Notes: generated from the letters alone by a model not told the origin. A stretch of DNA of 64,000 nucleotides from Limnothrix sp. FACHB-406 (GCF_014698235.1 NZ_JACJSP010000001.1:248001-312000), one strand, 5' to 3'. Positions 14,843 to 29,483 are shown, counted from the first letter of the stretch. Numbers and translations are program-made.

Positions 14843-16645
14843 CTATGCCTGCAAGGCTTCGGTGATTTTGGTTTGCAACGTGCTGACCAACTCCGCGATC
14901 GCCACTTCTTCGGCCGTGGCCGTCGCCCGCGTCACCAGTTCCACCTTGCCCTGGGCGATCGCCCGGCCCGTCACCACCCGGAACGGAATCCCGATCAAGT
15001 CGGCATCCTTGAACTTCACGCCGGCCCGCTCTTCCCGATCGTCCAGGATCGTTTCGATGCCTGCTACATTCAGGTCGCTGTAGAGCTGCTGGGCGATCGC
15101 CATTTGGTTTTCGTCGGCAATGTTCGGCACGGTGACGATCGCTTGGTACGGGGCGATCGCCACTGGCCAAATCACGCCATTTTTGTCGTGGGACTGTTCC
15201 ACCGCCGCCTGGGCAATCCGCGACACCCCCACGCCGTAGCAGCCCATCCAAAAGGGCTGGCTCTCGCCGGATTCCGTCGTGAAGGCCGCGCCCATGGCCT
15301 GGGAATATTTCAGACCCAGTTGAAAAATGTGACCGGCTTCGATGCCCCGCGCTGATTGCAGAATTTGCGAGGGGTCATGCACCGCCCGATCGCCCGGCCG
15401 CGCCAAGTCCAGCTCCACCACTTCCGGCAGTTTGTATTGAGCGCCCCAGTTCGCCCCCACCACGTGATAGCCCGGTTGATTCGCGCCAGTCACAAAGTTC
15501 TGAAGCTGGCTGGCGTTCGGATCCACGAGCCGCAGGAATTGGGGAGCCGTGTCCTTGGCCTGGGCGATGTGGTCGTCGCTCAAGTCTGGTGCAATGTAGC
15601 CCAGGGGCAAGGGTTTGGCGGCCCAGGCGGCTTGGGCATCCGCATCGGGCACTTTCAGGGCCAGCACCTTCGTGCCGCCGTAGTTCGGGGCCCGCTGGGT
15701 GATCGCGTTGAACAGCTTCACCTCGTTCACGTCCCGATCGCCCCGAATACTAATCAGCACCAGCACTCGCTTGCCGTTATCCAGCACGGCTTCATAGAGC
15801 ACGTTTTTCACCACCTGGGTCGGGTCGCACTTCAGCACCTCGCACAAGCGGGCGATCGTGGTGGTGTCTGGCGTTTCCAGGGTTTCAAAACTCGTAAAGG
15901 GCGAAGGAACCGCATCCACTGGCTGCGACACAGCTTTTTCCACGTTGGCGGCGTACTGCTCATCTTCCGTGAACAGGATTTCGTCTTCGCCCGTGTCCGC
16001 CAGGATCATAAATTCCTGGGAGGCGCTGCCCCCGATCGCCCCGGAATCGGCCTGCACCGGCCGGAACTTCAGGCCACAACGGCGCAGCATATTTCGATAG
16101 GCCTGATCCATCGCGTCGTAGGTTTCCTTCAGGCTTTCGGGCGAGGTGTGGAAGGAATAGGCATCCTTCATAATGAATTCGCGACCCCGCAGCAGGCCAA
16201 AGCGCGGGCGAATTTCATCGCGGAATTTGGTTTGAATTTGATACAAATTCACCGGCAGTTGGCGATAGGAACGGATCAGTTCCTTGGCCACGGTGGTGAT
16301 CACTTCCTCGTGGGTGGGCCCGAGCATCAGCTCCCGATCGTGGCGATCGCTCAGGGTAAAGGCGATTCCTTCTGCTTTGTATACATCCCAGCGGCCGGAC
16401 TCCTGCCACAGTTCCGCCGGTTGCAATTGCGGTAGCAGGCATTCTTGCGCGCCCGTCGCGTCCATTTCCTCGCGCACAATCTGCGACACCTTTTGCAGCA
16501 CGCGCCACATCAAGGGCAAATAGGCATAAATCCCGCTACCGATTTGGCGGATGTAGCCCGCACGCAGCAACAGCTTGTGGCTGGTGACAACGGCTTCGGC
16601 GGGGTCTTCACGAAGGGTGACGAACAGGGCTTGGGACAGACGCAT
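14843..16645 (-). CDS. proS: Prolyl-tRNA synthetase
   Basis: A 600-residue bacterial-type class II synthetase charging tRNA-Pro. The start [49 protein letters not shown], the motif 2 region [25 protein letters not shown] and the motif 3 region [18 protein letters not shown] are all present. The insertion (editing) domain spans roughly residues 230-400 and the C-terminal anticodon-binding domain follows. Its first 45 bases and upstream region are duplicated in decayed form at 17466-17575, beyond an MNT/HEPN toxin-antitoxin pair. Confidence 0.97.
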
Positions 16646-16710
16646 AAAACAGCCAGGAGCAATGCACAGTCCAGAATATCGCAGTTGGGGCGATCGGGCA
16701 GGGCGATCGC
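16601..16710. repeat. Long direct repeat, intact copy (proS 5' end)
   Basis: This 110-bp segment covers the first codons of proS and its upstream DNA. It matches 17466-17575 (offset 865) with about eight substitutions. The two copies flank the MNT/HEPN pair. Confidence 0.88.
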
Positions 16711-16780
16711 GCGGGTAATGGGGTGAGCCTGACGCTTGGCAAGCCGATCCATTACGATCGGAATAAAAAAATGACAGCCG

Positions 16781-17074
16781 ATGACACTCAACGACTTAAC
16801 CCCAGTGCTCAGAGCACGCATCAAAGAAATTGCGGCGCAACACGGAGCCTACAATGTCCGCATTTTTGGCTCCGTTGCCCGTGGGCAGGCTGATCACCAT
16901 AGCGATCTGGATCTATTGGTGGATTACGATCTCAGTCGCATTAGTCCTTGGTTTCCGGTGGGGTTGATTCGAGATTTAGAAGACTTACTCGCCATTAGAG
17001 TTGATGTGGTGACTCCTGCCGGTTTGAAAGATCGAATTCGCCAAGAGGTTTTACAAGAAGCCTGCCCCTTATGA
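16781..17074 (+). CDS. mntA: MNT-type nucleotidyltransferase antitoxin
   Basis: A 97-residue minimal nucleotidyltransferase. The catalytic signature is [20 protein letters not shown] (Gly30-Ser31, Asp42, Asp44), with a third acidic residue likely in RVDVV. In characterised MntA-HepT systems the antitoxin adds AMP to a Tyr of the HEPN toxin and silences its RNase activity. The stop overlaps the next start (ATGA), so the pair is translationally coupled. The pair was apparently inserted upstream of proS, with duplication of the proS start. Confidence 0.9.
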
Positions 17075-17400
17075 GAAATGACCTTGAGCGAATCAAAGAT
17101 ATCCAAGAGGCTATTCAAAAAATAGAAAAATATGCACAAAGAGGTGAGAAAGAGTTTTTTGAAAATGAATTAATTCAAGGCTGGATCCTACTTCAACTAC
17201 AAATTATTGGCGAGGCGGCAAGAGCGATCAGCAGGGAAACCTATAGTCAATACCCAAATATTGCTTGGCGTGATATTATTGGCTTCCGAAATCTCTTGGT
17301 TCATGAATACTTTCGAGTTGATCTAAGAATTGTTTGGAGAATTGTTGATCAAGAGATTCCTGAATTGAAATCTCAAATTCAAGTCATTCTTGACTCATAA
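17071..17400 (+). CDS. hepT: HEPN (DUF86) toxin
   Basis: A 109-residue HEPN-domain RNase toxin. The active motif RNLLVHEY places Arg73, His78 and Tyr80 in the R-x4-H-x-Y arrangement; in the family Arg/His form the nuclease site and the Tyr is the AMPylation target. The rest is helical, with IIGEAARAIS typical of DUF86. More AT-rich than its neighbours. It overlaps mntA by 4 bp and follows it in the same operon. Confidence 0.9.
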   Translation: MRNDLERIKDIQEAIQKIEKYAQRGEKEFFENELIQGWILLQLQIIGEAARAISRETYSQYPNIAWRDIIGFRNLLVHEYFRVDLRIVWRIVDQEIPELKSQIQVILDS

Positions 17401-17465
17401 TCCTATCAAAAATAGTAGTGCGATAATCCAATAGTCAGTAGGTTAGGTTGAGCCTTGCGAAACCT

Positions 17466-17575
17466 GGGGTCTTCACGAAGGGTGACGAACAAGGCTCAGG
17501 ACAGACGCATAAAACAGCCAGGAGCAATGCACAGTTCAGAATATTGCTGTTGGGGCGATCGGGCAGGGCGATCGC
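17466..17575 (-). pseudogene. Decayed duplicate of the proS 5' end
   Basis: This is about 93% identical to 16601-16710, in the same orientation relative to proS. Read on the minus strand it starts ATGCGTCTGTCC and then TGA replaces the CAA codon of real proS, so translation stops after four residues. It marks the far border of the MNT/HEPN insertion. Confidence 0.85.
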
Positions 17576-17606: not shown

Positions 17607-18074
17607 CTAGAAATTCAGACCGATTCCAGATTGCCCCACCTCAGCAGCATTCGGTTGTTCAAGACGAAATTCATCTTGAATTCGGCAAACAACTTGATAA
17701 CTTTTAGGAGGCGAAATGGGCAAAGCGCGTAAGTACAAAAAAGCGGCTTGAGCGCCAGATTCCAGCAACAAAACCAGATCGGTTTCGGGGTTATAGCTGT
17801 CAACGGCTTGCAAGATGTGACCATTGATATGGTGATGATTCAAAATAACCGTGTCAGGAAAGGCTAGCCAAGCATTTAAAAATGCTGCGAGCCGTGGCCT
17901 CACAACATAATGGGTGCGAAATGTTTCTCCTGTAATATTGAGTTGCGGTGAATTCAAGCTACAAATAACTGCACCTCGTCCTCCCGCCAGATAATTACTC
18001 CAAGCGTTATATCCCAGAACAATTAAATTTGTGGCAACAAAGGACTCCTGCCAATCAGAAGAAGATGTCGCCAT
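17607..18074 (-). CDS. Unknown protein, paralogue of 20388-20822
   Basis: A 155-residue protein, last gene of the riboswitch operon. I recognise no known family. It clearly aligns with the product of 20388-20822: both have F-x3-N then GY-x-AW-x2-YL-x2-GRG-x-V-x-C near the N-terminus, a central DxVLLLESG-type strand segment after Y-x-P, and end with Y-x-VC-x4-EF-x-L. Predicted soluble alpha/beta protein with no CxxC motif and no membrane segment. The start at 18074 has GGAG eight bases upstream. Its position directly after the ribonucleotide reductase small-subunit gene suggests an accessory role there, which is inference. Confidence 0.72.
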   Translation of the reverse strand: MATSSSDWQESFVATNLIVLGYNAWSNYLAGGRGAVICSLNSPQLNITGETFRTHYVVRPRLAAFLNAWLAFPDTVILNHHHINGHILQAVDSYNPETDLVLLLESGAQAAFLYLRALPISPPKSYQVVCRIQDEFRLEQPNAAEVGQSGIGLNF

Positions 18075-18175
18075 ACAAAAACTCCAATTCGTCACAACTT
18101 CAAATCAAAAACCATGGTCGAAAAAGTTGAAAAATACGATTGTCAGTGATAGAATCCAAGCCGCTGCCTGACCAG

Positions 18176-18895
18176 CTATCGATAACTCGGCAGGGCATCG
18201 TTAGCAATTTCAAAAAATGCAGGCTGAATCGCGCGGCGGGTTTCCACCAAATCAGAGGCACCTTGATAGAGCAAGCTATCTGATGCATCCAACCAACGTT
18301 GAGGCTTCCCAGAGCGTCCTGCTTCAGGAATCCGCAAGCCATCAACAAGCCAACCAACGGTATCTCTTCTGAGACGGTCTAAGGAACTGCTGTAGGTCAA
18401 TCCCAGATCATGAGCTATTTGGCGATGCACAGCCGCATGGACAGACTCATCACCAGAAATATCGCCCGAGATGATTCCTAAACCCACACCACCAAACATC
18501 CGAAGCAAGGGCAAAATCACAAAGAAAACAGAATTTTCTAATACAAAGGCCTTAACCAGCGGGTGATCAGGATGATTAATCCATTGCTGGTGAATTTGCT
18601 TGGCTGTTTCTTCATCTCTATCTGTCGTTAATTGATAGATTTGAGCGGCCATGCCTAATACTTTGTCGTGCCGTTCCTCGTCCAGAATATTAGAGCGCAG
18701 ACATTCAACTGCTGTTGCTGGAAGTGTCGTTTTACCCAAAGCCTCGTCTAGCCATTCCGCCACTTCTAATTCAAGAATGCGCAGAGCCAGGGCCCGCCCC
18801 AAAACTTGATCTGCCCCCGGCACTGTATTCATTTTTTCGCCACAAGTGGGTGTCCAAGAGCGCTTACGAGCTAATTGTTCAGTGTAAAAGTCCAT
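18176..18895 (-). CDS. Ferritin-like ribonucleotide reductase small subunit (R2-like), no radical Tyr
   Basis: A 239-residue helical protein with a complete dimetal ligand set: Glu42, Glu73-x2-His76 (DEERH), Glu120 (VLENSVFFVILP) and Glu150-x2-His153 (DESVH). Spacing Glu42 to Glu73 is 31, as in E. coli R2 Asp84 to Glu115. In R2 the radical Tyr sits four residues after the His; here that residue is Leu80. A Glu first ligand with a non-Tyr residue recalls class Ic (Mn/Fe) subunits. A Tyr near the C-terminus (Tyr238) could serve radical transfer. It is much shorter than the usual 320-375 residues. The start has AAAGGA seven bases upstream. It follows the large-subunit gene by 12 bp. R2-like oxidase is the alternative. 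Confidence 0.75.
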   Translation of the reverse strand: MDFYTEQLARKRSWTPTCGEKMNTVPGADQVLGRALALRILELEVAEWLDEALGKTTLPATAVECLRSNILDEERHDKVLGMAAQIYQLTTDRDEETAKQIHQQWINHPDHPLVKAFVLENSVFFVILPLLRMFGGVGLGIISGDISGDESVHAAVHRQIAHDLGLTYSSSLDRLRRDTVGWLVDGLRIPEAGRSGKPQRWLDASDSLLYQGASDLVETRRAIQPAFFEIANDALPSYR

Positions 18896-18907
18896 CAGAA
18901 GTCCTTT

Positions 18908-20287
18908 CTATTCAGCACAAGCAACACATTCGTCAGCCGCCAGATCGCAAGTGACCTGTTTCTGTTGAATGATGGTTTTATCAAGGGCAACCTGCTGACG
19001 GACTGGTAATCGATAGTAGGTTGTCCAGAGAGCCGATCTCATCCATTGTTCTAGGAAAGCTTGATCAATCACCTGGGTATCCCAAACGTTAAAGGATATC
19101 GAGTGAGCCTGTCCCGTCGCTTCCATACTTTGCTGCCAACAATTGGCCAATCGGAAATAGTCCTCATACCCCACTTCTGAAGCAATTTCTACTCGGGGAT
19201 GATGATCATAGGTTTGAATCCCAAAAACGCCACTGTAGCGATCGACTTCACAGGCGATCGGGGGGCTAATTTCCGGTGTTGTTGTGTAGCCGTCGCGATC
19301 AACATAGCGATAAGCACAGGAAGCCGTTGGCGCAATTGTTAGACTGCGCTCCATTCCCTTTTTTCGGGCCCAAGCCGCAGCACGATCGAACCCTTCAATC
19401 AGACTGCCCACTAATCGATCGGCCTTGGTTTGATTTTTGGTGTGGTCGATCGGCCGCAGGCGCAATTCCCAAGCTTCAACTAACTCATGATAAGTAATCC
19501 CTTCGATCGCCAAAAGCGATGCCAAGCCGATTACCCCCAACCCCACCTGTCGATCGTGTTCGGGCGATCGATAAAGGCCGCTCTCACCCACACCAGTCAC
19601 AGGGTGAATTGCACAGAGCATCTTCATACCATGCTCGAAAGCATCAGGAATATCCTCAATGCAGCACATTCCCAAGTTGACATGCTGCAGCAAACAGGTT
19701 CCCCGTGACGGCAAGAAGATTTCATTGCAAACATTGCCATACAGCAAATTTCCCGCAGCGTCAGTCCGAGCTTTAGAGAGCCACAAACTGCCGGATTGCA
19801 TTTGCTCCATGATGTCATTTAGGTATGGCAATTGCAGCAAATCATCATGGACAATTAGCGTGCGTTTAGCCCAAGGCAAGCGATCAATTGGAATATTAAT
19901 AAAGTCCTGAGCATCGGGGTGATGACTATCCAGATGCAAATTGACCGCTCCGTTTTTAAATCGGCCGCCCCGGCGGATCGTCTCATTCAGAACACTGTAA
20001 ATGCGGGCAAAAGATGTGGGGCCAGAGGCCGTGACATTCGGCGAAACCGTACCAGCGGGCCGCAGCGCTGACAAGTTGATCGCGACACCGGCCCCATAGC
20101 GGAGGGCCTGGCTCGTGAAATGCCAACTGTCTTCGATGCCATCCGGGCCATCCATTCGATCCTGCACAGCCAGAACCGTGCAGCTCACGGGCAATCGCCC
20201 CGCAGGATCATGTAGCCAATGATCCACTCGCCCTGTCACTGCCACGGTGGGATGGTCTGCCAATGCCAAAATTGACTGCTTATTCAT
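18908..20287 (-). CDS. Compact ribonucleotide reductase catalytic subunit
   Basis: A 459-residue enzyme expected to reduce ribonucleotides to deoxyribonucleotides. Active-site elements: SC at Cys36, the NVCNEI motif (Asn185, Cys187, Glu189), the resolving Cys198, the loop TIAPTASCAYRY, the class I-type YY dyad (Tyr424-Tyr425 in WTTYYRLP) and a C-terminal CVAC (Cys454, Cys457). The N-terminal ATP cone and most of the helical N-terminal region are absent; typical class I large subunits exceed 700 residues. The Cys187 to Cys198 spacing of 11 resembles class II enzymes, but the YY dyad and the adjacent R2-like gene argue for class I. The ATG at 20287 is chosen; an in-frame TTG lies 18 bases upstream. 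It is in an operon under a cobalamin riboswitch. Confidence 0.82.
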   Translation of the reverse strand: MNKQSILALADHPTVAVTGRVDHWLHDPAGRLPVSCTVLAVQDRMDGPDGIEDSWHFTSQALRYGAGVAINLSALRPAGTVSPNVTASGPTSFARIYSVLNETIRRGGRFKNGAVNLHLDSHHPDAQDFINIPIDRLPWAKRTLIVHDDLLQLPYLNDIMEQMQSGSLWLSKARTDAAGNLLYGNVCNEIFLPSRGTCLLQHVNLGMCCIEDIPDAFEHGMKMLCAIHPVTGVGESGLYRSPEHDRQVGLGVIGLASLLAIEGITYHELVEAWELRLRPIDHTKNQTKADRLVGSLIEGFDRAAAWARKKGMERSLTIAPTASCAYRYVDRDGYTTTPEISPPIACEVDRYSGVFGIQTYDHHPRVEIASEVGYEDYFRLANCWQQSMEATGQAHSISFNVWDTQVIDQAFLEQWMRSALWTTYYRLPVRQQVALDKTIIQQKQVTCDLAADECVACAE

Positions 20288-20387
20288 AAATGAAAGAGGA
20301 CACAATGAGCTAGCTCATTCATCGAGCTGATAGGCCGAATCAATCATCAACCTTGAAATTTTTGGTGTTAATTCAGCTCCTATCGAG

Positions 20388-20822
20388 TTAAGAAGCCAAA
20401 TTAAACTCTGACCAGCGATCGCACACTTGGCGATAACACTCAGAAGGCGCAATTGCTAGGTTTTGCAGCCAGTCAATCTCAACCTCTTGACCGTGCTTGA
20501 CCAAAATCAAAATTTCTCGATCGGGTGCATAGGTTTTGATTGTGTTCAACAGGCGATCGATTGAACTAACAGGCACAAGGCAAAGGTCAAGATATAAAGC
20601 AGCAAGGTCAAACGGAATATATTGCACAGACCTTGCTGTTACATTCTCAATCCAGCCCAAGCGAGTAGTCACCGTTTCTTTCGCCGCACAAGCCACGATT
20701 CCTCGTCCATGTTTGAGGTAGCCCTGCCATGCAACATAGCCGATATACAGGAAGTTTTCCTGAATAAAAGTAGGTGACTCAACAGTCAGGTCAGGCAACC
20801 TTGAACTAGTGGGATGAATCAT
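20388..20822 (-). CDS. Unknown protein, paralogue of 17607-18074
   Basis: A 144-residue protein overlapping the end of metE by 17 bp, with GGGAAG just upstream of its ATG. No known family recognised. It shares with the last operon gene the N-terminal pattern F-x3-N-x4-GY-x-AW-x2-YL-x2-GRG-x-V-x-C, the central Y-x-P-x5-ILVKHG segment and the C-terminal Y-x2-VC-x4-EF. It looks like a small alpha/beta cytosolic protein. The two paralogues bracket the two ribonucleotide reductase genes, so they may be regulators, assembly factors or subunits; no direct evidence. Confidence 0.72.
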   Translation of the reverse strand: MIHPTSSRLPDLTVESPTFIQENFLYIGYVAWQGYLKHGRGIVACAAKETVTTRLGWIENVTARSVQYIPFDLAALYLDLCLVPVSSIDRLLNTIKTYAPDREILILVKHGQEVEIDWLQNLAIAPSECYRQVCDRWSEFNLAS

Positions 20823-23055
20823 GAATTTCTTCCCGTAGCTTTTGCGTGGCGAGCACCATATTTTTGAGCGCAGGAAGCACTTCTTCCCACTGGCGAGTTT
20901 TTAGCCCGCAGTCAGGATTAATCCAGGTTTGCTGAACAGGCAAAAGATCAACACCAGTGCGCAACTGTTGGAGAATTTGCTCCACACTAGGAACGCTTGG
21001 GCTGTGGACATCATAGACCCCGTTCCCAACTTGATACTGATATCCAGCATCCGTAATTTCAAAGAGCGTTGCGTTGTTGCTGCGGCTATTTTCAATGGAT
21101 AGAACATCAGCATCTAGACGCTCAATGTGCTCAATAATGTCTCCAAACTCGGAATAGCACATGTGCGTGTGAATCTGGGTTTCAGCCTTCGCGCCACCGG
21201 TGGCTAATCGGAACGAATCCACAGCCCAACTGAGGTACTCATTCCACCGGGCAGATTTCAAGGGCAACCCTTCCCGGAGAGCCGGTTCATCCACTTGCAC
21301 CATGGCAGCTCCGGCGGCTTCCAAATCGGCAACCTCATCTCGTAAAGCCAGCGCAATCTGCATGGCCTGTTCACGGCGCGGGAGGTCAGCTCGGGGAAAT
21401 GACCAATTGATCATTGTGACTGGGCCAGTGAGCATTCCCTTCACTGGCTTGTTTGTCAACGATTGTGCAACTCGGAATTCCCGAACGGTCATGGGTTGCA
21501 AGCGGGACACATCACCATAAATGATGGGTGGGCGCACACAACGACTGCCATAACTCTGCACCCATCCATCCGTTGTGAAGGCAAAGCCCTGGAGTTGCTG
21601 TCCAAAATACTCCACCATGTCAGTCCGCTCAAATTCACCGTGGACTAGCACATCTAGCCCAACTTCCTCTTGGCGCTTGATGCACTCTGCAATCTTGATA
21701 TCGATCGCCTGGTGATAGTCTGTTTGGGAAATTTCTCCCTTTTTGTATCGGAGCCGCAGTTGTCGGATGTCTTGGGTTTGAGGAAAAGAACCGATCGTGG
21801 TGGTGGGCAAGGGAGGGAGTTTGGGTTGCCGATTCAGTCGTTGCTCATAGGGAAGGGAGCGCTGAAAATTCTCTACTTTTAGGGTTTGCAACACGTCGCG
21901 CACCACCGGATTGGGCAAGTTAAAGCGCTTGAATGCCTGCCAACGCAACTCGATCGCCGCTTGCTCATGGGCAATGTCTTGTCCGTTGAGGCCCCTGGCC
22001 AGCAACACCACTTCCGTTAACTTTTGCTCCGCAAAGCTGAGGACATCGCGCAAAGGTTGGGGGAGTTGAGTTTCGCAGGTTGCATCATGGGGAACGAACT
22101 GGAGCGACGCGGAGGGCTGAACGCGCAAATTTGGTGTGATTGCCTGCAATTCCTGAAGCAGTTCCAGCAGTCCCTTGGGTTCAATTGCCCAAACGCTCCG
22201 CCCGTCCACAACACCGGCCCCAAGCACTTTGTCGCGAGGAATGCCATGGGCTTTCACTAAAGACAGATTGTTGCCTCGCGTGAAATCGAGGCTAACTCCA
22301 GCTACCGGGAGCTGCATCACCCAGCTATAGGCATCCCCCAGATCATCAAAGTAGGTCACCAGTTGAATCGGCAGCCCCGCAGTTGCTAGCTGATGGTAGG
22401 TATGTTTAATGGCAGTTTCTAAATCGCCGGCATGACTGGTCACCAAGGCTGGCTCATGGAATTGCACCTCGGTGATTCCCAGAGATTTCAACTGCCCCAG
22501 CAGGTCAAGGTAGAGAGGCAGCAACCGATCCAAATCTGAGTAGAGATCGTTGGAGCGCCGACTGAGGGTGAGCAGCGTGACCGGACTGAGGATCACGGGA
22601 GTCGCCCGATCGCGGAGAATGAGCTGTGCTCGCTTGACCGTTGCCAGAAAATCATCGAAATTGGCCGCGGGAGCAAGATCAGACTCAATTTCGGGCACGA
22701 GATAGTGATAGTTGGTATCAAACCATTTCGTCATTTCGAGGGCAGGAATCCCGTCTTTGCCCCTGGCCATAGCAAAGTACTGATCAATGCCTGTGAACTG
22801 CCGAAACCGAGCGGGAATTAACCCCAGACGCACCGACCAATCTAGAACGTGGTCGTAAAGAGTTTGGTCTCCGACGGCAATTCGATCGACCCCAGCCTTT
22901 AACTGGGTTATCCAAGCGTGGGTTTCCACGGCTTCTACGACCGATCGCAAGGCGCTGATCTCACACTTGCCATACCAAAAAGACTCTAGGGCCTTTTTGA
23001 CTTCACGATTTTTACCCATGCGGGCATAGCCCAAGGTGGCGGTTTGAATAACCAT
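20806..23055 (-). CDS. metE: Cobalamin-independent methionine synthase
   Basis: A 749-residue enzyme transferring the methyl group of 5-methyltetrahydropteroyl-triglutamate to homocysteine without B12. The zinc ligands His631, Cys633, Glu655 and Cys716 fit the spacing of E. coli MetE (641, 643, 665, 726). The N-terminus TATLGYARMGKNREVKKALESFWYGK and the core TTTIGSFPQTQDIRQLR, INWSFPRADLPR and VQVDEPALREGLPL are typical; both barrels are complete. AGGAG lies ten bases before the ATG. It is the first gene of the operon after a cobalamin riboswitch, so it should be repressed when B12 is plentiful and MetH can work. Confidence 0.97.
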   Translation of the reverse strand: MVIQTATLGYARMGKNREVKKALESFWYGKCEISALRSVVEAVETHAWITQLKAGVDRIAVGDQTLYDHVLDWSVRLGLIPARFRQFTGIDQYFAMARGKDGIPALEMTKWFDTNYHYLVPEIESDLAPAANFDDFLATVKRAQLILRDRATPVILSPVTLLTLSRRSNDLYSDLDRLLPLYLDLLGQLKSLGITEVQFHEPALVTSHAGDLETAIKHTYHQLATAGLPIQLVTYFDDLGDAYSWVMQLPVAGVSLDFTRGNNLSLVKAHGIPRDKVLGAGVVDGRSVWAIEPKGLLELLQELQAITPNLRVQPSASLQFVPHDATCETQLPQPLRDVLSFAEQKLTEVVLLARGLNGQDIAHEQAAIELRWQAFKRFNLPNPVVRDVLQTLKVENFQRSLPYEQRLNRQPKLPPLPTTTIGSFPQTQDIRQLRLRYKKGEISQTDYHQAIDIKIAECIKRQEEVGLDVLVHGEFERTDMVEYFGQQLQGFAFTTDGWVQSYGSRCVRPPIIYGDVSRLQPMTVREFRVAQSLTNKPVKGMLTGPVTMINWSFPRADLPRREQAMQIALALRDEVADLEAAGAAMVQVDEPALREGLPLKSARWNEYLSWAVDSFRLATGGAKAETQIHTHMCYSEFGDIIEHIERLDADVLSIENSRSNNATLFEITDAGYQYQVGNGVYDVHSPSVPSVEQILQQLRTGVDLLPVQQTWINPDCGLKTRQWEEVLPALKNMVLATQKLREEIHDSSH

Positions 23056-23625
23056 GGGAATCGAGGCTCCTGAAATTTTGTGAAATGTTGAGTGACGATG
23101 ACACCGCCATTGAGGGGTGCTCTGTTCGATCGAGCACCCGCTGATCGGCTAGGCAAGTCCGCGCGATGTCAAGGAATGAATGTTGAAACCAAGTCCTGGG
23201 CGACAAACAGACCTAATCCAGCCAAGATGCAGCGAGTGTGGGCATTACTCTGAGGTTGCCTAAGTCTCGCTTTGGGGGCTAGGTTCGCAAGATTGGCGGT
23301 TGTGCCCCTGTGCTGGAGTTTGTCACTGGTGAGAGCGACGAAGGTTGAGTTTGTCGGTCTTTTTAGTCCCGCTGACACCAAGTCCCGCTAATTTTGACGG
23401 GGCGATCGGGTTTCTCATAATCTGGAGAAATTCCAAATTGCAACCAGCGATCGGGCAACCTGATAGTCAGTCCCCGGTCATCGTGGTTGGCCCTTGCCAT
23501 TGGGTAGAAACTGGATTGCCCTAGCGGTCAGCTCTTTGAGGGAATTAGGATCCACGCCCGCCTGGACTTAGAAGTTTGCCGGACAGGAAGGCACGGTCAA
23601 GGTGCTGAGCTGAAATGTTGCGCTG
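23056..23625 (-). other. Long untranslated leader between riboswitch and metE
   Basis: About 570 bases lie between the leader hairpin and the metE start codon. I see no supported reading frame; a 70-codon frame at 23169-23381 has an unlikely composition. The length is unusual, because riboswitch expression platforms normally sit close to the first gene. It may hold an extra promoter or a processed leader. Confidence 0.5.
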
Positions 23626-23661
23626 TAAAAGCTTGACGACCCAATTTTCTGGGGGTCGTCA
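23626..23661 (-). terminator. Leader hairpin, probable riboswitch-controlled attenuator
   Basis: Read on the minus strand, TGACGACCC (23661-23653) and GGGTCGTCA (23642-23634) form a 9-bp stem with a 10-base loop, followed by AGCTTTT. It lies downstream of the cobalamin aptamer, as expected for an intrinsic terminator in the leader of the metE operon. The T run is short, so strength is uncertain. Confidence 0.6.
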
Positions 23662-23714
23662 GCAAAATGCTGTAGGTTCATCTGTACCTCGCAGATGTGT
23701 GGTGCTTTGTAGGA

Positions 23715-23850
23715 TTGAATCGGCGGGCATTCTGACTCGGAGAAACGCTTCTCCTTCACAGCTGCGGGACAGTGCCGGATTTACACCGAACTTTCCCCGT
23801 TACCTCTGGCGGCTGCTCCCCGCTAGAACCGACTCGGTGCAGTATAGCAT
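23715..23850 (-). ncRNA. Cobalamin riboswitch
   Basis: On the minus strand the conserved core reads GGGAAAGTTCGGTGTAAATC, then CGGCACTGTCCCGCAGCTGTGA, a GGAGAAGC-TTCTCC hairpin and the B12-box-like AGTCAGAATGCCCGCC. The closing helix is formed by GAGTCGG (near 23835-23829) and CCGATTC (23723-23717). A further small hairpin, CATCTG/CAGATG (23679-23697), follows. All downstream genes on this strand (metE to 17607) can be read as one unit, so cobalamin binding should switch off B12-independent methionine synthesis and the compact ribonucleotide reductase. Confidence 0.93.
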
Positions 23851-23930
23851 CGTTTCCCCAACTTTCAGCGCTGGTGAGATGGGAATTCATCAATGCTCAC
23901 CTTTTGGGCAGGAGTCTATTGGAGACTGAA

Positions 23931-26900
23931 CTATCGGGTGTCGCCAATCAGGGTGAAGGCGGCCCAGTCGATCGGGTCGGGATATTCCTGAATGGTTCTT
24001 AGGGTGGCTTGGCGCAGGGCCGCCGCCTTGTCCATTCCTTGCCCCAGGAATTGATAGAACTGGGTCATCAGGAAGGCGGTGGGTGCGTCGGGCACGGCCC
24101 ATTGGGTGACGATCGCGCTGGGGGTTCCGGCCGCCAGGAGCGATCGGGATAGGCCCACAATCCCATCACCGGAAATTGCCCCCTGGCCAGTGTTGCAGGC
24201 GCTGAGAACGACTAACTGCGCCTTCAAGTCCAGGTTCAGTAGTTCTCGGGCGGTCAGCCAACCATCATCCCCTGGGCTGTTGCTGGGGGCCAGGGCGATC
24301 GCGCTGTCTAGGCCATGTTTCGCATCCAGAATTCCATGGGTGGCCAAGTGGATCAGGCTGGCTTGCTCCATTTGCCCCAGGACGGCGGCTTTGGTGGCTT
24401 GGGATCCCAACAGGGGACGAGCGTTCAACATGTGGGCGATTGATTGGGCTTCGATTTCCGCATTGGGCAGCGGGGCCAATTGCGATCGAGTATTGGATCG
24501 GCTGCTGGGTAGACGCGGCATGGTTGGATTACCCACGATCAAGGGGCGATCGGTCAGGGCTGTTCCTCCCTGGCGCAGGCGCTGGGCCTGGCGTTGGGTG
24601 CGATCGAGCACTTGAATTGAAGGAGCCATGGCCAAACTGTGGCGCTCGATGAGATATCGGCCTTGATCATCTTGCAGGGCAGAAAAGGGCACCAGGAACA
24701 GATCCTGCTGGGGCATCACAATCAATTGATCGCCCGGTTGGGTGGGTAACCATTCGGCGATCGGCTCAATCAACAGGCGATGGAGCTGGCGCAAACCGGG
24801 GGTAATCGATCGCCGGTTGCCGTTCACCGTGGACTGGGCTGATCGGCTGGCGGTGCGTGTTCCCAAAAACAACCGCAACAGGGGAATTTGATCGCGTAGG
24901 GTTTGGCTGTTGGGCAAGGGCACTTGGCGAAAATGCACCTGTCCCGAAGGTTGCACCACCCAAATATTGATGGCTAAGTCGAGGAGCTGGCGTTGGCCCT
25001 CGTGGTCTCGGGTATCCCGCTCGATCGCGTAGGAAATCAGCGTGGCGGACTGCTCGCGGGCCACCCGCTGAATTTGCCCTAGGTCGATCGAGTCCGTCAA
25101 TTCCGATGGATTGGGAGTTGGGGCCGATCGCGCGGCGGATCGATCGCCCCATTGGCTTTCCTCCGCCAACAGTTTCAAGAGGGCTTGGGCCCGACCCCGT
25201 TCATTGGCCAGCAGGGCCTGTTCCGGTTTTTGGGCCGCAATCAACACCGTTTGCAAGGTGCTGTAGGTGGTTTCTTGGGTTTCAAAAATCGCCAGCCGGG
25301 CCCCATCGCTGGTCAGGTTCTCGCGCACCTGTTCCCAAGAGGCGATCGCCCGTTGCAGATAATCCGTGGCCGCGTCAAAGTCTTGGAGTCGATAGTATGT
25401 ATCTCCCAGGTTAGACAGGGCCCGCGCCGTACCGTGGCGATCGCCCAAGGCCTGGGACAGGGCCAGGGCCTTTTGTTGAACCGTGGCCGCAGTTCCATAG
25501 TCCCCTTGGGCATAGTAGGCCAAGCCCAAATTATCGAGGGTGCGGGCGATCGCCGGTTGATCGTTCGCCTGTTCCGCCAGGGCCAAACTGGCCTGATGGG
25601 CTTTCACGGCCGCCTCGTAGCGCGTGGCTTGGTAATCCAGCAGGCCAATTTGGGTGAGGGCGCGGGCTTGGTTGCTCAGATCCTGATGCTGCTGGGCGAT
25701 CGCCAAGGACTGTGCAAAATAGGCGCGGGCTTGCTCCAGGTTTTGTTGATTGGTCGCCATCAGACCCAAGTTATTCAGGATATTGCTTTCCAACGTGGGC
25801 GCAGGGTTCGATCGCAACAGGGCCAAGGCCTGCTCATAATGGGCGATCGCCTCTGGGTATTGACCCAAAGCCCCATAACTACTGCCCAGGTCACTTTCCG
25901 CGATCGCGGCCAACAGGGGCTGATCCGTTGCCAAATCACGACTTTCACGATGGGCCAAAATCGCATCGCCATATTCACCCGCTTGGTAGTGGGCCCGACC
26001 CAACCGCTGCAAGGCCACCACGATCGCCTTGCGATCGCCACTGTTGCGGGCCCGCTCAAGGTCTTTGCGTTGGCAATCTAACCAAACGGTGTTGTCGCAA
26101 AGGGCTGCTTGCAGGGTTTCGGCCCGCAAGGCTTGCAAATTCAACACTTGCCCTGGATCGGTTACTGAGCCGTTGGCGGGGATTCCCGAGGAATTTGTGC
26201 TCTCCAAACCGGGCGATCGAGACCCCAGTAAAGCCGTTTGGTTAATCGCCTGGTTGGTTTGGAAATCCACCACGCCGGCCGAATGGGCCAGGTTCGAGCC
26301 ACCCTCTCCAATTGCACCACTGTTAGGTAAGGGGTTACTGCTCACCGGTAGCCCCGTTGCCAAGGTTCCCACCATCGAGTTGTTGGCCGCATCCGTCACC
26401 CCCGAGGGCGGAACCAAAGGCGCTGCATTGGGAGACTGGCCGGAAGAAGGCGCGATCAATGGCGCGATCGACAAATTCGTGGATGTGGGAACTGCACTGG
26501 TCACAGGGGCCGCATTGCCAGCAACGCCGTTCACCGATGCCGGGTTCGCCGCAAAGGCAGCGGAGGCCAGATTCGCCCGCTGCACGATCGAATCGGAACT
26601 AATGGCCGCGCTTAGGTTATTGCCAATCAGGTTCGTATTCCCAGCATTGGCAGTTCCCGCCACTGGGCTACTCCCCCCCGCGCTCACCGGTTGTTCAGTG
26701 GTGTTGGCCAAGGTGGACTGCACTAACCCATCCACATTGGCGGCCCAAGGAGCCGAAATGGGTGCCTTGCCGGTAGAGAAATGGATTCCTTGATTGGTTG
26801 GTGTCAATAAGCCACCAAAGTTTGCTCCGTCAAGGCTGATGTTGACCGTAGCCACCGTGAATGAAGGGCCAGTGTTCCCGGTATTAGCGGTGTTGGAATT

Positions 26901-28733
26901 GTTGTTCACCACGATCGGCTTCACAGGCAAGAAAGCAGATCGATCGTCCTCATCCTCTGAATTGGTGGAATTGGTTGTGGTTGAGTCCACAGGGGCGATC
27001 GGGATCAAGCTAAAGGAAGTGTTCAGGCCGCTAACGGTGGTGTTGGTGGTGCTGGAATTGGAGCCAGTTTGCATGGGAGCCACCGGAATCAGCGACACTG
27101 AACTGCTCAGGGTTGGATTGGTACTGGGGGGATCGTTGGTTGTGCCGGGAATCAGGGTAATGGATCCGGGGTTGATCGTACCCGTTGTCCCTGTGCTCGT
27201 GCCCGTTGTTCCCGTGCCCGTGCCCGTTGTGCCCGTAGGGTTCAAAGGAACGACAGGGCGTAGGGTTGTGGAGCCAGTGCTGGTGCTGCTGCTGGAACTG
27301 GTGCTGCTGGGTGAGGGCGTAGTGGGTCTAGTGGTGGTGGTAGCAACCACGGGCGAGGAAATGAAGGGAGCGCGGTTGCTGCGGGCGGGTGTGGAGCCGA
27401 AGGCAAGGGTGGTTTGACCATCGCGATCGCTGAAGATCGGTTCAAAGACCGTGCGAAACAGCACCCGATCGCCCGTCGGTTGCGTCACAAACAATTGACC
27501 ACCCGTGCGCAGGGGCAAATTCCCGGCGATCGCCCCTGAACTCACTAAAAAAAGATTGAGATCACTGATGATGCCGCTGTCGGAGTGGTGCAAGCCGTAT
27601 AGATCCACCTGCCGATCGCCCCAGAGGGTCAACTGTCCCCCGGCGCTCAACCGCAAAGGATTCGTGGAATTGTCGCGCCCGATCGCCGCTTGTCCCGCCA
27701 GTAAATGTAAATCGCCCGTGGTGCTGAGCTGACTAGACAGCAGCAGCAAGTTATGGGCCGCCGACAGGGTGGCCGTTCCGGCCGTGGCTGACTGCACCGC
27801 CACATCACCCGCCGCCAAGGGGCCCTCAGAATGGCCGATCGAAACCGTGCCATCAGGCCGCACCGTCAAGGCATTGGCCGTGACCGGTTGCCCCGCCAGC
27901 AGTTCCGGAATGGTTCGCGGGGCGATCGGGTCCAACGCCAAATCCGCACCGGGCCGCCCCCCGATCGGCAAATCCAACGCCAGCACCGACCCTTCCGGCG
28001 TGAACCGCACAAAGCGATCGCCCGGAACCGCCGCCACCATCAGCCGCCCCCCCGGAGCCGACAGGGTTCCCACGCTCAAGACCGCGCCCCCCACCAAACT
28101 CAAGCTTTGGCCCGTTGGCACAGCCAGGGCCGCCCGGTTCAAAATTCCTGCCGGTTGCGACAGGGCAAACGCCAGCCCCGTTGGATCGCCCAACAAATTC
28201 GCGTATTGATTGGCTCCTGTCGCTTGGAACCAAAATTCCCCAGACTCACCAAAGCTCGCACCCGTGGCCGTGGTGGCCGTGAAGGAAGCGGGCACATTCA
28301 GCCGAGCATTGGGCCCAAACACCAAACCCGCTGGATTCACCAAAAACAGATTGGGGTTGCCACCGCTGACCTGGATGAGTCCATCAATTCGCGACGGATC
28401 GCCCCCCACCACACGCCCCAGAATGTTGCGCAAGTCCGGCGTGGCCAGGAAATTCGCAATTTCCTGGGTGTTGAGATTAAACCGCTCAAAGCTGTGGAAC
28501 AGGTTGGCCCCATCGCTCGATCGACTGCCGCCGCTGATATCTAAGCGATCGCCCTGGGGAGTCACCACCGTGCCCGTGCCGTCGGCCGCCGGGGCGATCG
28601 ACTGGGCCCAAACCGCCCCCGAGTCAGCACCCAGGCTCCCGATCGTCAAAAAACCCGCAATTCCCGCAATTAAACAGCCCCCAACACCTGCCCCCACGAA
28701 GGAGCAGCCACCTAAGTTCCGCAAGACATGCAT
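23931..28733 (-). CDS. TPS-secretion domain / TPR / CHAT protease fusion protein
   Basis: A 1600-residue protein with three parts. After a signal-like N-terminus ending in AQS, residues to about 300 form a filamentous-haemagglutinin TPS domain (FHSFERFNLNTQEIANF, LFLVNPAGLVFGPNARLNV), which normally directs two-partner secretion through an outer-membrane TpsB pore. A long Ser/Thr/Asn-rich low-complexity region follows. Roughly residues 900-1200 are TPR repeats (GDYGTAATVQQKALALSQAL and similar). The C-terminal CHAT domain has the caspase-like dyad His1466 (HLATHG) and Cys1513 (LSACNTG). The start at 28733 is preferred to an earlier in-frame codon because it leaves a normal signal peptide. Probably a secreted or surface-exposed protease; the TpsB partner is not in the window. 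Confidence 0.88.
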   Translation of the reverse strand: MHVLRNLGGCSFVGAGVGGCLIAGIAGFLTIGSLGADSGAVWAQSIAPAADGTGTVVTPQGDRLDISGGSRSSDGANLFHSFERFNLNTQEIANFLATPDLRNILGRVVGGDPSRIDGLIQVSGGNPNLFLVNPAGLVFGPNARLNVPASFTATTATGASFGESGEFWFQATGANQYANLLGDPTGLAFALSQPAGILNRAALAVPTGQSLSLVGGAVLSVGTLSAPGGRLMVAAVPGDRFVRFTPEGSVLALDLPIGGRPGADLALDPIAPRTIPELLAGQPVTANALTVRPDGTVSIGHSEGPLAAGDVAVQSATAGTATLSAAHNLLLLSSQLSTTGDLHLLAGQAAIGRDNSTNPLRLSAGGQLTLWGDRQVDLYGLHHSDSGIISDLNLFLVSSGAIAGNLPLRTGGQLFVTQPTGDRVLFRTVFEPIFSDRDGQTTLAFGSTPARSNRAPFISSPVVATTTTRPTTPSPSSTSSSSSTSTGSTTLRPVVPLNPTGTTGTGTGTTGTSTGTTGTINPGSITLIPGTTNDPPSTNPTLSSSVSLIPVAPMQTGSNSSTTNTTVSGLNTSFSLIPIAPVDSTTTNSTNSEDEDDRSAFLPVKPIVVNNNSNTANTGNTGPSFTVATVNISLDGANFGGLLTPTNQGIHFSTGKAPISAPWAANVDGLVQSTLANTTEQPVSAGGSSPVAGTANAGNTNLIGNNLSAAISSDSIVQRANLASAAFAANPASVNGVAGNAAPVTSAVPTSTNLSIAPLIAPSSGQSPNAAPLVPPSGVTDAANNSMVGTLATGLPVSSNPLPNSGAIGEGGSNLAHSAGVVDFQTNQAINQTALLGSRSPGLESTNSSGIPANGSVTDPGQVLNLQALRAETLQAALCDNTVWLDCQRKDLERARNSGDRKAIVVALQRLGRAHYQAGEYGDAILAHRESRDLATDQPLLAAIAESDLGSSYGALGQYPEAIAHYEQALALLRSNPAPTLESNILNNLGLMATNQQNLEQARAYFAQSLAIAQQHQDLSNQARALTQIGLLDYQATRYEAAVKAHQASLALAEQANDQPAIARTLDNLGLAYYAQGDYGTAATVQQKALALSQALGDRHGTARALSNLGDTYYRLQDFDAATDYLQRAIASWEQVRENLTSDGARLAIFETQETTYSTLQTVLIAAQKPEQALLANERGRAQALLKLLAEESQWGDRSAARSAPTPNPSELTDSIDLGQIQRVAREQSATLISYAIERDTRDHEGQRQLLDLAINIWVVQPSGQVHFRQVPLPNSQTLRDQIPLLRLFLGTRTASRSAQSTVNGNRRSITPGLRQLHRLLIEPIAEWLPTQPGDQLIVMPQQDLFLVPFSALQDDQGRYLIERHSLAMAPSIQVLDRTQRQAQRLRQGGTALTDRPLIVGNPTMPRLPSSRSNTRSQLAPLPNAEIEAQSIAHMLNARPLLGSQATKAAVLGQMEQASLIHLATHGILDAKHGLDSAIALAPSNSPGDDGWLTARELLNLDLKAQLVVLSACNTGQGAISGDGIVGLSRSLLAAGTPSAIVTQWAVPDAPTAFLMTQFYQFLGQGMDKAAALRQATLRTIQEYPDPIDWAAFTLIGDTR

Positions 28734-29483
28734 GGTAAGGACAACAAGCAGTGAGTAGGAGTCAGATCCAGCGAGATCAAGACGCAAGCAAAATCAAGAT
28801 GCCATCAAATCGCTGAAGTTTCTGGAGAGCTGCTCAACAAGCAACATACCCATTTTTCGCAAGAATTTGATCCCAGACGCTCCCTGGCCAGTCTAGAACA
28901 TTCGTTTATGAAATTTAGAAACGATGCAGGCTGTTCAAGATCCGGTTCTGAATCCATTCAAAAACTGATGAAACCGTCAATTAAATTACTGATCAAGTTC
29001 TATTATTAATTTTTCTCATTACAGACAAAAACGCCGAATTTTTCATTCGTAATTCTTTAGCGCAATGAATATCAGAACCAATGAATACAGCCCTTACCTC
29101 GATTAGTAGCCCGTAGGGTGGGCACTGCCCACCGAGCCGTTGCTTCATGGTATCTGTGATATGGCGTGCCAATTATTTTAGGTAAAGGCTGTATCAAGCG
29201 AATATCAGAATTAGACTTGAAACTCAGCCTCAAGTAACTGTGTGATCTTGTTGTGACTTTGCAATCAATTCTCAAATAAAAAAGATAAACCCTGATGACT
29301 GTCAGACTTTCTTGAGCATCCAAACAGGCATGGTGTCCAAAATTTCTGCCATTTTTGCAATTACTCGCAGCGCCAGAAATGATTGATCAATGCCATCGAT
29401 CCTTTGGATTACAAGTTTATGGCCTGCTTTTTTCACTAGTGAACAGAGCGAAAACCACACTCCCAAAAATCAGTTAAGCGCCT
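28734..29483. other. AT-rich intergenic region carrying a MITE-like element
   Basis: No gene is supported. The only structure found is the element at 29086-29193 (listed separately), flanked by an 11-bp direct repeat. Left of it (28790-29080) is simple AT-rich spacer that should hold the promoter of the TPS-CHAT gene. Confidence 0.45.
29086..29193. mobile_element. MITE-like element with 14-bp terminal inverted repeats
   Basis: The ends TACAGCCCTTACCT (29086-29099) and AGGTAAAGGCTGTA (29180-29193) are inverted repeats with one mismatch. The interior holds GTAGGGTGGGCACTGCCCACC, whose core GGTGGGCA-C-TGCCCACC (29117-29133) is a perfect hairpin. The 11-mer GAATATCAGAA occurs on both sides (29067-29077 and 29200-29210), a few bases outside the ends. 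There is no coding capacity. A matching end motif also occurs near 4375. Confidence 0.6.

Follow-up and report, generated by a model that had tools for sequence, protein, structure and literature searches.

On the minus strand of a 64,000-nt stretch of the Limnothrix sp. FACHB-406 genome (GCF_014698235.1, NZ_JACJSP010000001.1:248001-312000; hereafter the window), a predicted cobalamin riboswitch is followed by five collinear genes: metE, an unnamed gene A, the α and β genes of a compact ribonucleotide reductase (RNR), and an unnamed gene B (Table 1). We read this arrangement as a bypass operon for vitamin B12 shortage, in which MetE and an RNR assigned to class Ø would be made behind the riboswitch in place of MetH and NrdJ, and we assign this reading a probability of roughly 0.78. 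During a cobamide shortage, as might arise when cobalt is limiting, the riboswitch would allow transcription or translation to go ahead; MetE would then be made and stand in for MetH, and the metal-dependent class Ø RNR would stand in for the B12-dependent NrdJ. Cyanobacteria use B12 in both MetH and NrdJ (PMC6370689).

Table 1. Predicted features of the operon and its leader, in window positions
Feature	Position	Strand	Remarks
Promoter-like CTGAAA-16-TATACT	23841-23868	minus	consensus match only, 9/12; just upstream of or touching the aptamer 5′ end
Cobalamin riboswitch aptamer (RF00174)	23848-23705	minus	60.9 bits vs gathering threshold 31.5; E 1.3e-12
Leader from aptamer to metE, ~650 nt	23056-23704	minus	contains hairpin GACGACCC...GGGTCGTC
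metE, B12-independent methionine synthase	23055-20806	minus	749 aa; NF003556 979 bits vs cut-off 541
Gene A, predicted CcmS-fold protein	20822-20388	minus	144 aa; start codon overlaps metE end
Predicted class Ø RNR α	20287-18908	minus	459 aa; ATG start
Predicted class Ø ferritin-like β	18895-18176	minus	239 aa
Gene B, A paralogue, predicted CcmS fold	18074-17607	minus	155 aa

The match to RF00174 spans the full model (positions 1-189), is the only RNA-family match in the 64 kb of the window, and is also kept at the corresponding locus (L008) of a second species, Limnothrix sp. CACIAM 69d. Judged by its sequence the element is a cobalamin riboswitch, for which cobamide binding and gene control are predicted. 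It would act as an OFF switch, with high cobamide repressing and scarcity permitting expression. The stem of the leader hairpin is preserved in L008 according to sequence comparison and folding. The earlier note on this DNA had claimed a cobalamin riboswitch ahead of five collinear genes, and the profile match and the shared strand of all five genes confirmed it. MetE also scored above the curated cut-off of TIGR01371 (934.5 bits) and above those of both domain models, PF08267 and PF01717. Control of isozymes of B12-dependent enzymes by cobalamin riboswitches is known, and metE genes behind RF00174 are among the described cases (PMC3766115); compared with these, the present metE is followed by A and B and, in Limnothrix, also by the RNR genes.

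The metE and A genes overlap and the α and β genes are separated by 12 nt, and the gaps on either side of the reductase pair measure 100 nt (A-α) and 101 nt (β-B). A strong terminator was looked for between the operon genes and none was found; a single transcript would presumably run from the aptamer through B. The riboswitch and all five genes occur in identical order at L008, which places the arrangement far beyond chance. Between the two Limnothrix species, the number of synonymous substitutions per synonymous site (dS) was 0.28-0.47, and the ratio of nonsynonymous to synonymous substitution (dN/dS) was 0.094 for metE, 0.25 for A, 0.054 for α, 0.047 for β, and 0.165 for B. All five operon genes are under purifying selection, the RNR genes most strongly.

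B12-dependent enzymes and other riboswitches of the host

MetE and the reductase pair had been put forward in the earlier note as replacements for MetH and NrdJ. They stood as B12-free counterparts but not as replacements, as a search of the genome found both B12-dependent enzymes: an intact MetH of 1202 aa and a class II NrdJ (TIGR02505, 792 bits vs a cut-off of 340; this model was used instead of PF02867, which misses cyanobacterial NrdJ). The absence of either enzyme was thereby ruled out, as was a disruption of metH by a TAG codon, the alignment having merely overrun the end of the open reading frame. The presence of intact MetH and NrdJ argues for a conditional bypass and not a replacement. 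Since CbiB, a protein of B12 synthesis, is present together with MetH and NrdJ, the host probably synthesises B12 as well as using it.

Three matches to the cobalamin riboswitch were found genome-wide, one of them being that of the metE operon. The second lies upstream of the cobalt uptake genes hupE-cobW, and the third, which at 29.9 bits falls just under the gathering threshold of 31.5, lies upstream of a gene called CbiX-like by sequence inspection. The three riboswitches read as one response to cobalt or B12 shortage, in which cobalt is imported and inserted and, meanwhile, B12-free counterparts of MetH and NrdJ are run.

The reductase pair, its class and its origin

Class Ø (the Cyano SP clade) is a minimal RNR clade from cyanophages and marine bacteria that has been placed at the base of classes I and II, and its β subunit has been unstable and so far uncharacterised. 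The best PDB match of the Limnothrix α protein was 7URG, the class Ø enzyme of Synechococcus phage S-CBP4 (phmmer E 3e-131), and the next-best chains followed at 4e-9. The protein is compact, with the Pfam barrel starting at residue 34 and no ATP cone. In an alignment with phage members, C36, C187, and C198 correspond to C30, C185, and C196 of 7URG, and the tyrosine dyad Y424-Y425 corresponds to Y420-421 of class Ø. The C-terminal sequence CVAC (C454-C457) forms a CXXC motif. Class Ø tails carry either CXXC, reported as the older form, or CXC; among 85 compared sequences, a number that takes in Limnothrix and the reference phages, 64 had CXC and 21 CXXC. The β protein matched PHROG 6799 (phrog_6799, E 5e-70) and is 42-46% identical to the best-matching cyanophage β proteins. 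Its putative ligands are E42, E73-H76, E120, and E150-H153, which form two E/D+EXXH motifs; Leu80 occupies the site of the radical tyrosine, as in class Ø β, and the penultimate residue is Y238, so that the protein ends just after its C-terminal tyrosine. From the PDB match, the model cut-offs given below, and the residue alignment, we assign the reductase to class Ø and not to the ordinary class I NrdAB enzymes. The α-β pair would be expected to have RNR activity and to depend on a metal.

The earlier note had pointed to riboswitch control of class I reductases in some bacteria such as Streptomyces; a class I reading of the Limnothrix pair was not upheld. Streptomyces has an nrdABS operon, encoding a class Ia RNR, under cobalamin-riboswitch control, and retains NrdJ alongside it. 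If the Limnothrix pair were an ordinary NrdAB of class I joined to metE, the regulatory logic would be the same, and the YY dyad of α and the two EXXH motifs of β would suit it, but the α protein scored far below the curated cut-offs of NrdE_NrdA (51.8 vs 341) and NrdJ_Z (70.9 vs 400) and had its best match in class Ø, and no Pfam or NCBIfam model matched β, including the RNR small-chain models. An ordinary class I enzyme is therefore very improbable, and a typical NrdA/NrdB identity was rejected on these scores. In both systems a cobalamin riboswitch precedes a B12-independent RNR and NrdJ is also present, whereas the Limnothrix enzyme is of predicted class Ø and is joined with metE, A, and B. 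Riboswitch-controlled metE and a riboswitch-controlled class Ia RNR are each already known separately. A literature search found no paper on joint riboswitch control of metE and RNR in cyanobacteria, and as far as this search shows, three features are new: a chromosomal class Ø RNR behind a B12 sensor in a cyanobacterium, the union of the two bypass enzymes within a single operon, and a riboswitch-linked family with the predicted CcmS fold.

The class Ø RNR of S-CBP4 (7URG; PMC9531940, PMC6370689) resembles the Limnothrix pair in its α protein, which is of similar size, has no ATP cone, and shares the catalytic cysteine set, tyrosine dyad, and C-terminal double cysteine, as well as in the short ferritin-like β, where leucine occupies the radical site and a tyrosine stands near the C-terminus, and in the α-β gene order. 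The Limnothrix pair differs in being located on the chromosome of a filamentous cyanobacterium from fresh water with an NrdJ of its own, in standing behind a riboswitch together with metE, in sequence (~50% identity for α and ~44% for β), and in having a CXXC and not a CXC tail.

Class Ø α was found in 2 of 386 cyanobacterial genomes in a phylum sample (1 of 142 genera) and in 2 of 390 genomes in a class-level sample, in each case both from Limnothrix. In a midpoint-rooted tree with viral sequences, in which Limnothrix was the only source of cellular class Ø sequences, the two Limnothrix α proteins fell outside all viral sequences, with ~50% identity to the sampled phage α proteins. This position lends no support to a recent acquisition of α from any of the sampled phages. 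The α-β pair was not present in the metE-A-B operons of the other cyanobacteria examined, and the gene order looks as if a cyanophage-type class Ø pair had been inserted between A and B of an older riboswitch-metE-A-B operon. The operon would have been built by this placement, with the transfer presumably running from phage type to cell. According to a proposal by Harrison et al. 2019 (PMC6370689), an RNR of this type lets cyanophages do without the B12 of the host. A cellular class Ø gene under a B12 sensor fits this proposal, on which the Limnothrix operon bears directly, and a cellular copy beside an intact NrdJ provides a genetic setting for testing activity, metal, and B12-independence.

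The gene order kept in two species at a dS of 0.28-0.47 and the α and β dN/dS values of about 0.05 speak against a different account, according to which the reductase pair is an insertion of phage origin, recent or transient, that has its own promoter, is not controlled by B12, and stands behind the riboswitch incidentally. The flanking gaps of ~100 nt, a weak match to a promoter within the A-α gap, and the absence of the pair from the metE operons of other cyanobacteria and from a third Limnothrix genome would suit such an insertion, but the distance of α from all sampled phage sequences speaks against a recent arrival from these, a strong terminator was not found between the genes, and the function suits the location, NrdJ being a B12 enzyme. 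We therefore consider an incidental insertion unlikely.

Several points nevertheless weigh against a B12-controlled bypass operon. More than 3 kb lies between the riboswitch and the downstream α and β genes, and the weak promoter-like site in the A-α gap (20371-20343, 9/12) might serve them, although 9/12 matches are no commoner than in shuffled sequence. The U-tract of the leader hairpin is not conserved, so that the hairpin is not clearly a terminator. The third Limnothrix genome is without metE, A, B, and α, which shows that the trait is dispensable. With α outside the sampled phages, the tree gives neither the immediate donor nor the direction of transfer, and class Ø activity with β was not demonstrated in PMC9531940.

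Genes A and B: family, riboswitch link and predicted fold

A and B are paralogues, as the earlier note had recognised: B as a query recovered A in its own genome (26% identity, E 3.7e-10), and a joint A/B profile matched exactly A and B in this genome. Neither protein had a significant Pfam or NCBIfam match. Homologues were found in 32 of the 386 genomes of the phylum sample, spread over 22 of its 142 genera, and a same-strand cobalamin riboswitch was located upstream in 27 of 29 A/B stretches from other genomes, compared with a chance expectation of ~1% of 13-kb stretches (3 sites in 4.5 Mb of the Limnothrix genome). The two exceptions were L049, whose contig begins inside metE, and L056, which has degraded copies. 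The L056 stretch (genome G318) has at least two B copies, of which one is interrupted by in-frame stops, and it contains no riboswitch; the copies are apparently decaying. Given the riboswitch link in 27 of 29 stretches, we place A and B, by homology and gene context, in an unnamed cyanobacterial family of old members of the cobalamin regulon. The earlier note knew of no description, in cyanobacteria, of joint control of both enzymes together with a pair of unknown paralogues; A and B with metE and a riboswitch recur widely, and what is left as peculiar to Limnothrix is the RNR insertion.

The genes metE, A, and B are contiguous in L043, L044, L046, L054, and L049 (5′ end missing), with a riboswitch ahead in all except L049, and A is the first gene after the riboswitch in L062, L065, L066, and L070. 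Where metE is absent, the neighbours of A include S-adenosylmethionine (SAM) methyltransferases, fatty-acid desaturases, cobW, and DUF1636. In L067 and L068 the final codons of a lost metE still stand ahead of A. There, metE remnants lie between riboswitch and A, comprising the first 44 codons (L067 6883-7014, L068 5912-6043) and the last codons in the 60 nt before A, as if metE had decayed and A had been retained under the riboswitch. The riboswitch loci L058, L067, L068, L070, and L071 combine A with a fatty-acid desaturase and in most cases also with SAM methyltransferases, and may represent an unstudied B12-regulated lipid or quinone modification.

The gene ahead of A, whether metE, a methyltransferase, or cobW, ends with a GGAGG-type site and overlaps the start of A (L071 5858-5933, L059, L060), which suggests that A is translationally coupled to whichever gene precedes it. 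The C-terminus of the L071 methyltransferase resembles the MetE end (EAAKILREEANANAK). We considered whether this shared tail (AAKILREE..., L071) is a docking tail of the CcmS type and rejected the idea: the DNA of the tail covers the Shine-Dalgarno-like GGAGG site and the overlapping A start, so that translational coupling and gene replacement explain the shared tail better. A phage origin of A and B was likewise discarded, as none was found in phage records or viral contigs (one search used a single narrow pattern) and no viral fold matched significantly.

AlphaFold models of A and B had mean predicted local distance difference test (pLDDT) scores of 81.6 and 83.7. At E ≤ 0.001, the only PDB fold matched by either of these two independent models was CcmS, with two structures each (E 1.4e-5 for A and 1.9e-6 for B). 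CcmS (All1292; PDB 8ZLH, 9IUR) is a dimeric chaperone binding the C-terminal tail of the carboxysome shell protein CcmK1 (PMC11635287), and resembles A and B in predicted fold and in its length of ~140 aa. It differs in that A and B have no clear sequence similarity to it (15-20% identity, template modelling score about 0.5-0.6) and are found with metE or other enzymes behind riboswitches, not in ccm clusters. As the fold match is significant and the sequence profile reached only E 0.76-0.91 against CcmS, A and B are classed from their models as CcmS-fold proteins and not as CcmS.

The sole significant fold and the binding of CcmS to the CcmK1 tail would be compatible with A and B acting on the carboxysome, tuning shell assembly under B12 shortage and not serving MetE or RNR. 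This role has a low probability in our view, considering the low identity and template modelling scores, the barely matching profile, and locus partners that are metE, methyltransferases, desaturases, and cobW; A and B were not beside the ccmK1 carboxysome genes in the loci examined. Within the bypass operon, A and B may be binding or assembly proteins serving the riboswitch-controlled enzymes, and our preferred reading, at about one chance in three, is that these small, presumably dimeric proteins bind the enzymes made under the riboswitch and help to assemble or stabilise them. A wider version is tentative and rather doubtful: that the cell domesticated a cyanophage-type class Ø RNR as a B12-free supply of deoxynucleoside triphosphates controlled by a B12 sensor, and that A and B are a new family of CcmS-fold chaperones dedicated to B12-independent riboswitch-controlled enzymes. 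A and B in any case represent a new, widespread, and unnamed family of the cobalamin regulon with an unexpected predicted structural tie to a carboxysome chaperone.

Genes flanking the operon

On its upstream side the riboswitch is adjoined by a gene for a 1618-aa protein (23931-28787, minus strand), in which reading of the sequence suggested a filamentous-haemagglutinin-like N-terminus, TPR repeats, and a CHAT-type domain. On the other side, between B and proS, a nucleotidyltransferase/HepT toxin-antitoxin pair (PF01909, PF01934) is located at 16781-17400 on the plus strand, bracketed by 110-nt direct repeats (16601-16710 and 17466-17575) that are 95% identical. In the second Limnothrix species (G042) the alignment jumps from window position 16710 to 17466, as if one repeat copy and no toxin-antitoxin pair were present, and genome G386 contains a diverged copy (79%).

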